Source: Candidatus Blochmanniella pennsylvanica str. BPEN (GTDB lineage: Bacteria; Pseudomonadota; Gammaproteobacteria; Enterobacterales; Enterobacteriaceae). Taken from it: DNA of 64,000 nt. The stretch spans positions 496,001 through 560,000 of the forward strand of contig NC_007292.1 in the NCBI RefSeq assembly GCF_000011745.1, given 5' to 3'. Numbering within the stretch: the first letter of the stretch is position 1; the number at the start of each line of letters is the position of its first letter. Positions 6,631 to 10,473 of the stretch are shown here, piece after piece. The position numbers were made by a program, and so were the translations under genes. Below the pieces are notes generated by a model. The model saw nothing but the letters and a program-made list of their open reading frames with translations, was not told the DNA's origin and made no database searches.

Positions 6631-7579
6631 ATGAATACAACAATATATTTTTATAATATAATATTTTTTATTATTGGTTTACATCAGTATTTAGCTACTG
6701 CTACTGTTTATACATTACCTGATCACAATAACAGACTAATAGGCGAAAATATTGAAATTATCACACCTAAAAACAATACATATTCTCTTGAATATTTTTC
6801 TGCACAATTTCAAGTAGGAATGAGTAACATGTTAGAAGCTAATCCTGACGTCGATGTATATCTTCCAGATTCAGAAAAAAAATTAATAATTCCACATCAA
6901 TTAATTTTACCAAATACGCCTCATTCAGGCATTGTTATTAACAACGCTGAAATGCGGTTATACTATTATCCTGAAAAAAAAAATACTGTAATTGTGTTAC
7001 CGATAGCTATCGGGACCATTAAAAATGCAACACCATCACATTGGATAACCTCAATAACACATAAAAAAAAATCCAATTTGGATCCCTACCAAAAGTATGC
7101 GTGATGAATACATTAAACATGGAGAAATCCTACCTACCATATTTCCGGCTGGCTCTAGTAATCCTATGGGGCTGTATGCTTTATACTTAGAAAAAAATTA
7201 CGCAATCCACGGCACCAATAGGAATTTCGGAATCGGCCTTAGAATAACTCGAGGCTGCATAAGATTACGCCCTGAAGATATTGAATACTTATTCAACATT
7301 GTCCCCGTCGGTACTAAAGTACAATTTATAAATGAACCTGTGAAAAGTACTGTTGAAAAAAATGGTATGCGGTATTTAGAGATTCATAATCCGTTATCTT
7401 GTAACAAAGACAAAAAAAGATCAGAAGCATCGATAATAGCGCATTTAGAACAACAAATACGATCTATATTAATAAACGATTCCAACGTAGATTATGAAAT
7501 AATTAACAAAGCATTAAAAGATCGTTCCGGTATACCGATAAACATTACACGTAAACTTACCAACAATGAAAACAAATAA
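6631..7579 (+). pseudogene. ldtC: L,D-transpeptidase (LdtC/YcfS type), frameshifted at a poly(A) run
   Basis: In E. coli this enzyme attaches Braun lipoprotein to peptidoglycan. Two overlapping frames (6631-7104 and 7097-7579) together cover the whole protein. The first holds a signal-like N-terminus, the LysM-like region (SNMLEANPDVDVYLP) and the start of the YkuD domain (SGIVINNAEMRLYYYP). The second holds HGTNRNFGIGL and the active-site Cys (RGCIRLR). The break is at nine A (7063-7071): after HKKK the first frame ends in about ten residues, while the other frame continues as PIWIPTKSMRDEY, matching E. coli PTWTPTAKMHAEY. Removing one A would join them. The His of the usual S/T-H-G-C motif is Arg here (TRGC), which suggests relaxed selection. 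It could be partly rescued by transcriptional slippage or simply be decaying. Confidence 0.9.
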
Positions 7580-7720: not shown

Positions 7721-7802
7721 TACCCGGGACGAGATTTGAACTCGTACAGTCAAAGCCGAGGGATTTTAAGTCCCTTGTGTCTACCAATTCCACCACCCGG
7801 GC
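7721..7802 (-). tRNA. leuZ: tRNA-Leu (anticodon UAA)
   Basis: Cloverleaf read on the minus strand: acceptor GCCCGGG paired with CCCGGGT (a G-U first pair, as in E. coli leuZ), D arm, anticodon loop with TAA, a long variable arm typical of class II tRNAs, and a T arm with GTTCAAATC. The 3' CCA is not encoded (GTT follows the discriminator A). It lies next to tRNA-Cys and downstream of pgsA, the E. coli pgsA-glyW-cysT-leuZ order without glyW. Confidence 0.97.
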
Positions 7803-7816
7803 TGTTCAGAATAAAA

Positions 7817-7887
7817 AGACGCGTCTCGGAATTGAACCGAGATATACGGATTTGCAATCCGATGCATGACCACTCTGCCAACGCGCC
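7817..7887 (-). tRNA. cysT: tRNA-Cys (anticodon GCA)
   Basis: Minus-strand cloverleaf of 71 nt: acceptor GGCGCGT paired with ACGCGTC, anticodon GCA in GATTGCAAATC, and discriminator U73, the identity base of tRNA-Cys. CCA is not encoded. It lies 14 nt upstream of tRNA-Leu and is probably co-transcribed with it. Confidence 0.97.
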
Positions 7888-8314
7888 TCACAAACAATAT
7901 TAACCAGACATACAACAAAATACAAACCCTATCAACATAACCACATTTTAATCTCATATATTCTTCAGTAACAATTTAAATTGTTACTGATCAACTTAAC
8001 AATAACAGACCTATAGCAATTTCAAACCATCCTTTTATTTAAAAAAGATATAATCTTTTACATGATATAGATTCGATTATCAACATGATCTTCATCGTAT
8101 TGGCATCAATGATCAAATTCAAATTGTATTTTTATCTTTAAATAAGTGTACGTTTTCTATATAAGTAATATACATACGTAATGCTTGAATATAATGTAAG
8201 TTTACATAAATAACCCTATATATATTAATATAGATAGCGGTCAATGCCATTCCAATTTTTCAAATAAATACAATTACATGCTCACCTTAAAATTATAATC
8301 TATATAAATAAAAA
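7888..8314. other. pgsA-tRNA spacer lacking glyW
   Basis: About 430 bases between pgsA and tRNA-Cys. E. coli has tRNA-Gly (glyW) in this place; no cloverleaf is visible here. The only structure is the palindrome at 7965-7990. Confidence 0.6.
7965..7990. repeat. 26-nt perfect palindrome between pgsA and cysT
   Basis: TCAGTAACAATTT followed directly by its reverse complement. On the minus-strand transcript it would form a hairpin about 325 nt past the pgsA stop and about 80 nt before mature tRNA-Cys. It could end or process the pgsA message, but there is no U-tract. Confidence 0.5.
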
Positions 8315-8866
8315 TCAATAATTAAACAAGTCATAACGCACAATATATAAATAAAGGCACATAGACCAAAATGTCAACAACACTGAAACATACAACGCAA
8401 CAATGCCTATAATTACTATCCATTCATCAGAGCTCCATAGTAATGCAGTTAAAGCCAACATTTGTACAAATGTTTTGATTTTGCTAATCCATAAAACCCC
8501 AATTCCGTTACGACTACCAATTGCAGCTACCCATTCACGCAATGCTAATATAATCACTTCACGAATAATTATAATGGACGCTGGTAATGTGACCCACCAC
8601 GTATGAAAATGCTCAGCTATTAAAACAAGTGCCGCAACTATCATAACTTTATCTGCTACTGGATCTAAAAATTTACCAAAGCTAGTAGTTTGTTTCCAAC
8701 GCCGAGCCAAAAACCCATCAAACCAATCTGTAACAGCCGCAACAAAAAACATAATAGTACATATCATCGGCGCCCACCTTACAGGTAAATAAAACATTAC
8801 CGTAAAAAACGGCACCATGACAACACGTAATAAAGTAAGATACGTAGGTATATTAATAATATCCAT
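8315..8866 (-). CDS. pgsA: CDP-diacylglycerol-glycerol-3-phosphate 3-phosphatidyltransferase PgsA
   Basis: Makes phosphatidylglycerol phosphate, the precursor of phosphatidylglycerol and cardiolipin, in the inner membrane. It carries the full CDP-alcohol phosphotransferase signature D-G-x2-A-R-x8-G-x3-D-x3-D (DGFLARRW ... GKFLDPVAD) and several membrane helices. The frame is open from a TTG at 8881, but the ATG at 8866 gives 183 residues against 182 in E. coli and starts the conserved [11 protein letters not shown], so I use it. A cardiolipin synthase gene (cls) further along the window uses its product. Confidence 0.96.
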
Positions 8867-9353
8867 AATAACAAAAAACAATTAATTTAACAAAATTAAA
8901 ATGTTAGCTCTTAAAAGAGCTATAACTTTATAAATACATACTCCATCCTTTATATTTATAAAGAATTTTACATAATAACATTATTCGTTATCAATATAAC
9001 TGATACACTGAATTAGATAAAGAACTACTCATTTAACCTATAACCAATATTCTTATAACATACAATTGAAATGTAGTATCCATTTATTTAATAAACTACA
9101 TCGTTGCAGCCTTACATCATAAAATATTTATAAAATACATAATCATCAATTTTCTCTATTATTATGTGATATAATAGAATATTAAGACCACAGTTTTCTA
9201 CTGCTGTAGATACAATACCTGTGAGCTACTGTAATTAATTAAGCTGTCTTTAACCCATTAAATAACCAATTACACATAATAATATATAAAGAATAAATAA
9301 TCAAAATTCAATTTAGTTACTAACATAGTATCATATATTTTAAAAATATAATT
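8867..9353. other. pgsA-tRNA-Lys divergent spacer
   Basis: Nearly 490 bases, presumably with the pgsA promoter (leftward) and the tRNA-Lys promoter (rightward). A small hairpin, TAGCTCTT/AAGAGCTA at 8905-8922, lies in the pgsA leader. No gene is visible. Confidence 0.5.
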
Positions 9354-9427
9354 GGGTCGTTAGCTCAATATGGCAGAGCAGTTGACTCTTAATCAATTGG
9401 TTGTAGGTTCAAATCCTACACGACCCA
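9354..9427 (+). tRNA. tRNA-Lys with anticodon CUU
   Basis: Cloverleaf with acceptor GGGTCGT/ACGACCC, D arm GCTC/GAGC, anticodon stem GTTGA/TCAAT, loop CTCTTAA (anticodon CTT), T arm TGTAGG/CCTACA and discriminator A. The body is almost identical to E. coli tRNA-Lys(UUU), but position 34 is C, so it should read AAG and not AAA. The D loop is one base longer than in E. coli. CCA is not encoded. Confidence 0.9.
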
Positions 9428-9722
9428 ATCAATGAGACACTGCAATATCTGCTAACATTTTCAGTAAGTTAGAAAAACCTTTTAATGTTTTCAACATAAA
9501 TATATATCTACGAAATAACTAAAATATTAGAACAAAAACTTTAATAATTACTTCTGAATGCATGCTCTTAAAATAGTACAAATGAAAAACCACATATTAA
9601 TCATCAAAATAACTACTTTTAAAGAAGTATATTTACTTATACAAATTCTTAAAAAATAACAAAAATATTGGTTCTATCACATTCCATTAGTACAAAAAAA
9701 TAATCATTATACTTTAAATCTC

Positions 9723-9806
9723 CGGAGGAGTAGAGATTCGAACTCTAGAATGTTTTACATTACCGATTTTCAAGACCGGCGCCTTAAACCACTCGGCCAC
9801 TCCTCC
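9723..9806 (-). tRNA. serT: tRNA-Ser (anticodon UGA)
   Basis: Minus-strand class II cloverleaf: acceptor GGAGGAG/CTCCTCC, discriminator G, anticodon TGA in GGTCTTGAAAATC, a long variable arm, and T loop GTTCGAATC. CCA is not encoded (GAG follows). E. coli serT also lies close to tusE, which supports the symbol. Confidence 0.96.
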
Positions 9807-10143
9807 ATAAAATTTGAAACAATACAATTATTTTATCATTTTTTTTTATACATACAATAAATACATTATACTTCTACGTATAGCAAAAAAATTAAATGGT
9901 TTAAATTATTAATTTAATACTGAAATCAATACTGAATTATAAAAAATAATTCCTATAAACAAAAAGACCATATTTAACAACATTATTATTAACCTATATC
10001 AAGTATAAATTATATTACTATGAATATATATACTCATAATTAATACAATTTTGATTATATCTAAATTTAAACACTATTTAAGTCTCCGCGCATTATTATT
10101 GAATATTAATAATAAATTTATTAAGTAATTAAGGAATAACTCT
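9807..10143. other. serT-tusE divergent spacer
   Basis: About 340 AT-rich bases between divergent genes. Promoters are expected, but none is distinguishable. Confidence 0.45.
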
Positions 10144-10473
10144 ATGAAATATAATAAAATTAATGCTAATATTGACACACAAGGATATTTAATTCACCTT
10201 GAAGATTGGAATGAAGAAATTGCAATTAATATTGCTAAATTAGAAGGCATTACACTAAATACAATACATTGGGAAATTATATATTTTGTACGAAAATTTT
10301 ATATGGAATTTAATTCGCTACCAAAAATTCGAATACTAATCAATGCTATAGCGCTTAAACATGGTAAAGAAAAAGGAAATAGCCGATACCTTGCTCGTTT
10401 ATTTCGGCAAGGATCTGCAGTTCAAAAAATTGCAAAAATTTCTGGCCTTCCTAAACCTGTTAAATGCTTATAA
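10144..10473 (+). CDS. tusE: sulfur relay protein TusE (tRNA 2-thiouridine synthesis)
   Basis: Cytoplasmic sulfur carrier that takes persulfide sulfur from the TusBCD complex and hands it to MnmA for 2-thiolation of U34 in tRNA-Lys, -Glu and -Gln. It belongs to the DsrC/TusE family, with HWEIIYFVRKFYMEFN and GNSRYLARLF conserved. The catalytic Cys108 is penultimate (PKPVKCL), and the length of 109 residues equals E. coli. AAGGAAT lies just upstream of the ATG. Its retention implies that a U34-type tRNA-Lys, its normal substrate, probably exists elsewhere in the genome. Confidence 0.95.
   Translation: MKYNKINANIDTQGYLIHLEDWNEEIAINIAKLEGITLNTIHWEIIYFVRKFYMEFNSLPKIRILINAIALKHGKEKGNSRYLARLFRQGSAVQKIAKISGLPKPVKCL

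Follow-up and report, generated by a model that had tools for sequence, protein, structure and literature searches.

Bacteria differ in their tRNA-Lys complement: E. coli has a sole tRNA-Lys, whereas Thermus has two (PMC5009743). In one survey, UUU is the sole tRNA-Lys type in only 168 of 431 bacterial species (PMC4066793). From this figure, we gather that possession of a CUU gene is probably the commoner state in bacteria. Here, we examined a tRNA-Lys(CUU) gene within a 64,000-nucleotide stretch (the window) of the genome of the symbiont Candidatus Blochmanniella pennsylvanica BPEN. The gene shares the anticodon loop CUCUUAA and a similar body with the tRNA-Lys(CUU) genes of Sodalis, Yersinia, Pectobacterium, Erwinia, and Brenneria, for which ARAGORN likewise calls CTT. 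Unlike other bacterial CUU genes, 9 of the 14 homologs from the symbiont genus have a D-loop that is one base longer.

The preliminary description of this locus had called the tRNA body nearly that of E. coli tRNA-Lys(UUU), adding that E. coli has no tRNA of the CUU type. The likeness was borne out: the best match of the BPEN gene per E. coli record had 80 to 90% identity in 5,374 of 5,379 records and 90 to 95% in 5 (89.3 to 90.7% in the best 20), whereas position 34 is U in E. coli. Three of these best 20 were inspected as potential CUU genes and rejected, all having a TTT anticodon. The second statement stood for E. coli chromosomes at the sensitivity of a search with a 42-base Yersinia CUU query, which needs 28 exact bases and may therefore miss diverged genes, but it failed for a single plasmid gene among 5,426 genomes. 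That plasmid, NZ_CP061761.1 (tRNA-Lys(CUU) at L348 4016-4091; ARAGORN, CTT), is 10.4 kb long and harbors colicin E7 together with two replication initiation genes.

At the BPEN locus itself, the CUU anticodon noted earlier was recovered by ARAGORN (ctt), by an Rfam RF00005 match (G000:C1:505354-505427, equal to window positions 9354-9427; 72.9 bits, over the cut-off), and by direct reading of the seven-base loop, in which C occupies position 34. A script that checked position 73 and three stems (acceptor, anticodon, and T) found all pairs in place (7/7, 5/5, and 5/5, respectively) and A at position 73. Together, the ARAGORN call, the RF00005 score, and the full pairing of the three checked stems indicate a canonical cloverleaf. 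A73, U35, and U36, which we take to be lysine identity elements, were found by motif and stem checks in all 14 CUU genes of the genus. The tRNA is expected to read AAG; presumably the gene is transcribed, and its product is charged by LysRS, keeps an unmodified C34, and decodes AAG. The 3′ CCA is encoded by neither tRNA-Lys gene of BPEN (9353-9428 in the window; L046 1134-1206), ATC following A73 in the CUU gene, whereas 29 of 34 CUU genes outside the genus encode it. The gene and its neighbors are listed in Table 1.

Table 1. Features at and around the tRNA-Lys(CUU) gene, in window coordinates
Feature	Position	Strand	Evidence
tRNA-Leu(UAA), downstream of pgsA	7721..7802	-	ARAGORN
tRNA-Cys(GCA), downstream of pgsA	7816..7888	-	ARAGORN
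pgsA, conserved neighbor	8315..8866	-	NCBIfam TIGR00560, 170.3 bits (cut-off 109.1); present in 14/14 genus loci
tRNA-Lys(CUU)	9353..9428	+	ARAGORN, Rfam, stem check, sequence
tRNA-Ser(UGA), conserved neighbor	9722..9807	-	ARAGORN; adjoins the CUU gene in 14/14 genus loci
tusE, sulfur relay protein of the U34 thiolation pathway	10144..10473	+	NCBIfam TIGR03342, 123.2 bits (cut-off 53.5)

To place this gene among the tRNAs of its genome, we considered the complete set. The BPEN genome (791,654 bp, one contig) contains 40 tRNA genes by Rfam, each with an ARAGORN anticodon, and four of the ARAGORN tRNAs lie in the window. By hand tally, each anticodon occurs once except CAU, which has three genes. 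Besides those for Met, Trp, and Lys, seven tRNAs carry C34 (Thr CGU, Leu CAG, Leu CAA, Ser CGA, Pro CGG, Arg CCU, and Arg CCG); six of the seven have a U34 partner (hand tally), and the C34 Lys gene therefore fits the tRNA set of the genome.

Codon usage and the lysine tRNA count bear on how AAA is read. The window has a G+C content of 28.2%, and its 40 counted open reading frames (ORFs; ATG started, at least 150 amino acids, kept if overlapping a longer ORF by <30%) contain 825 AAA codons versus 80 AAG codons. AAG is thus the rare lysine codon, as had been stated. The preliminary description had left two options, that a second tRNA-Lys(UUU) exists elsewhere or that AAA decoding is unusual, and had proposed a whole-genome count. 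Rfam and ARAGORN gave one CUU and one UUU gene, the latter at G000:C1:625433-625505 adjoining tRNA-Val(UAC), a neighbor that it also has in loci L060, L061, L064, L065, L066, and L068. The absence of a tRNA-Lys(UUU) gene was thereby ruled out; AAA has a normal reader in the same genome, and the suggestion of unusual AAA decoding is left without support. The further proposal that the retained TusE points to a thiolated U34 tRNA-Lys fits what the genome encodes: besides TusE, whose match to the equivalog model NF008562 (128 bits) falls below the cut-off of 191, there is a profile match to MnmA (G000:C1:479484-480548, 476.2 bits), and tRNA-Lys(UUU), tRNA-Gln(UUG), and tRNA-Glu(UUC) are all present. 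The modification itself is predicted from these genes.

The CUU gene is conserved throughout the symbiont genus. Each of the 14 genomes, BPEN among them, carries a single CUU motif and a single UUU motif, both with zero mismatches. All 28 genes have A73 and full pairing in the acceptor, anticodon, and T stems, with G-U counted as a pair. Since the identical motif recurs in every genome, a sequencing or assembly error at C34 was ruled out. Presence in 14/14 genomes also suggests some selection to keep the gene. Within the locus DNA examined, tusE was found in 12 of the 14 genus loci. The CUU gene lies opposite in strand to pgsA in 13 genomes and on the same strand in G012.

To determine how far the gene extends beyond the genus, we searched 295 genomes of the family, which include BPEN and two others of its genus. 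A strict CUU pattern matched 85 genomes, spread over 51 of 154 genera, and a second pattern of different design matched 84; the reversed-pattern controls gave no matches in either case. The two patterns agree except in G192, which the second missed, and G203, in which the second added another copy. Genomes scored as CUU negative are those with no strict-pattern match, a class that a divergent CUU gene could enter. In named genome contigs, an exact 26-base CUU pattern occurs in at least 118 stretches. The matches listed include, by title, Sodalis, Yersinia, Pectobacterium, Erwinia, Proteus, Morganella, Photorhabdus, Xenorhabdus, and Aeromonas, as well as Verrucomicrobia, Cyanobacteria, and Anaerolineae; ARAGORN called CTT in 6/6 of the loci from this listing to which it was applied. 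A C34 gene that is widespread and ordinary in relatives, the outcome named beforehand as speaking against anything unusual here, is therefore what was found, in the genus (14/14) as in the family (85 and 84 of 295 by the two patterns). By hand tally of the strict-pattern matches, the gene is present in 12 of 84 family genomes of ≤1.0 Mb versus 73 of 211 larger ones. Reduced genomes thus mostly do without it, and it is not indispensable; the small genomes may have lost it or may descend from ancestors already without it.

Gene order was compared in 20 kb around the gene in 20 hand-chosen CUU-positive relatives. In 11 of the 20, pgsA lies downstream of tRNA-Lys(CUU) on the same strand, so the BPEN gene resembles other bacterial CUU genes in its place upstream of pgsA but differs from its relatives in being inverted relative to pgsA, as in 13 of the 14 genus genomes. 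tusE is near the gene in two relatives, L264 and L256, the latter having pgsA as well. Thus, pgsA and/or tusE accompany the gene in 12/20, and neither was found within ~10 kb in the remaining 8; the position upstream of pgsA is therefore not universal. The L256 order is tusE, tRNA-Ser(UGA), tRNA-Lys(CUU), pgsA, tRNA-Gly, tRNA-Cys, and tRNA-Leu, and the Pectobacterium locus L179 has tRNA-Lys(CUU), pgsA, tRNA-Cys, and tRNA-Leu on one strand.

The shared neighborhood and the wide spread together argue that the gene is an old isoacceptor for AAG, and that vertical descent is its most likely history. We therefore consider it highly probable that tRNA-Lys(CUU) is an ordinary isoacceptor for AAG beside tRNA-Lys(UUU) and that it has most likely come down by vertical inheritance from the enterobacterial ancestor. 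That ancestor would already have had the CUU gene upstream of pgsA and of the downstream tRNA-Gly, tRNA-Cys, and tRNA-Leu genes, and the gene would have been retained through genome shrinkage. The compact order in the symbiont may have arisen by loss of intervening genes, loss or movement of tRNA-Gly, and inversion of tRNA-Lys. In decoding, tRNA-Lys(CUU) would pair with AAG only, and tRNA-Lys(UUU), presumably thiolated at U34 through the TusE/MnmA relay, would read AAA and could also read AAG.

An alternative account of why the gene was kept, which we regard as unlikely, is that its main role in this A-rich genome is the prevention of −1 slippage at A_AAA_AAG sites and not the supply of AAG decoding. 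A CUU tRNA should lower frameshifting on AAG, according to PMC4066793, which cites Tsuchihashi and Brown 1992. The same paper, however, reports that of 83 species having both tRNA-Lys types, 46 carry insertion sequence elements containing AAG motifs of this kind. Also against this account, the 40 ORFs of the window contain A_AAA_AAG in frame at 2 sites and have 6 AAA-AAG pairs, where 8.1 are expected.

The programmed slip site of dnaX gave evidence on both sides. Of the 218 genomes in which domain V was matched, we sampled 70 (the 30 best scoring and 40 picked by hand). A_AAA_AAG followed by an early −1 stop was kept in 23 of 29 CUU-positive and 38 of 41 CUU-negative genomes, and the association of CUU presence with loss of A_AAA_AAG was not significant across the 70 (Fisher’s exact test, P = 0.15); the 29 include G027, which is uninformative because of a 204-nucleotide open frame upstream and without which the count is 23 of 28. 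Among the six CUU-positive exceptions, five show A_AAA_AAA followed by an early −1 stop and the sixth is uninformative, but all three CUU-negative exceptions likewise have A_AAA_AAA, so that this form occurs in 5/29 and 3/41 genomes, respectively. When the genomes are grouped by genus, A_AAA_AAA replaces A_AAA_AAG in 6 of the 27 genera that have a CUU-positive member versus 0 of the 29 that lack one (P = 0.009), a grouping that was chosen after seeing the data, ignores kinship, and drops G027. The flanks of the A_AAA_AAA form are alike in several genera and may reflect only one or two events. A scan of 649 codons of BPEN dnaX (open frame of 727 amino acids) found no A_AAA_AAG in frame; it did find A_AAA_AAA sites, which −1 stops follow within a few codons. 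We treat as doubtful, though with somewhat better prospects than slippage suppression as the main role of the gene, the idea that tRNA-Lys(CUU) shapes programmed frameshifting such that the dnaX slip site in carrier lineages tends to change from A_AAA_AAG to A_AAA_AAA, in which the second codon is read by the slippery UUU tRNA alone. The wider value of the locus lies here alone: CUU-positive and CUU-negative species within one family constitute a natural experiment on A_AAA_AAG frameshifting. As a separate observation, BPEN dnaX (L274; domain V at G000:C1:366187-366603) contains several A runs upstream of domain V, one of them of ten A, followed after a few codons by −1 stops; transcriptional slippage is possible at these runs.

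A second alternative concerns origin. The preliminary description had suggested a diverged duplicate, and in its more specific form the CUU gene would be a copy of the tRNA-Lys(UUU) of its own lineage, having acquired CTT in place of TTT after the symbiont genus arose. The two genes of the BPEN genome are 88% identical, the CUU and UUU genes of G001 and of G008 have the same D-loop within each genome, and the T stem of many CUU genes outside the genus is the same as that of UUU genes. The T stem sequences themselves are mixed: GTAGG occurs in 12 and ATAGG in 2 of the 14 genus CUU genes, GCAGG occurs in 12 of the 14 genus UUU genes, and the 34 CUU genes from outside the genus (of which L093 and L174, on contigs of equal length, may be one gene) have GTAGG in 8 cases and GCAGG in 14. 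The T stem thus does not decide on the descent of the CUU gene. Against a duplication within the genus stand the presence of the CUU gene in every genus genome and its location in a neighborhood common to 12 of the 20 relatives examined, which disfavors a recent duplicate in particular. We judge such an origin very unlikely. Duplication would apply, at best, to the distant past; the distribution and location of the gene point instead to an old, inherited isoacceptor.

Finally, tRNA-Lys(CUU) might read AAA in an unusual way if C34 underwent editing or a modification such as conversion to lysidine by TilS. This idea has in its favor that TilS is encoded (G000:C1:344851-345426, 173.3 bits) and that AAA makes up 825 of the 905 lysine codons counted, but it is so improbable as to be set aside, because a normal tRNA-Lys(UUU) gene leaves no need for a modified C34, the anticodon is CUU and not the CAU expected of a lysidine tRNA, and the three CAU genes account for TilS, whose usual substrate has a CAU anticodon (an isoleucine CAU tRNA would require it). 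tRNA-Lys(CUU) is an ordinary gene of an already known kind, nothing suggests unusual reading of the code, and a false lead toward unusual AAA decoding in the symbiont is removed.

Elsewhere in the window, two ORFs on the forward strand (6631-7104 and 7097-7579) match the front (profile positions 10-148) and back (157-305) of the L,D-transpeptidase model NF007612, both below the cut-off of 583 bits. Just ahead of the break between them is a run of nine A, and the pair resembles a single reading frame interrupted near a poly(A) tract. Blochmannia pennsylvanicus is named among slippage cases in PMC5009743.
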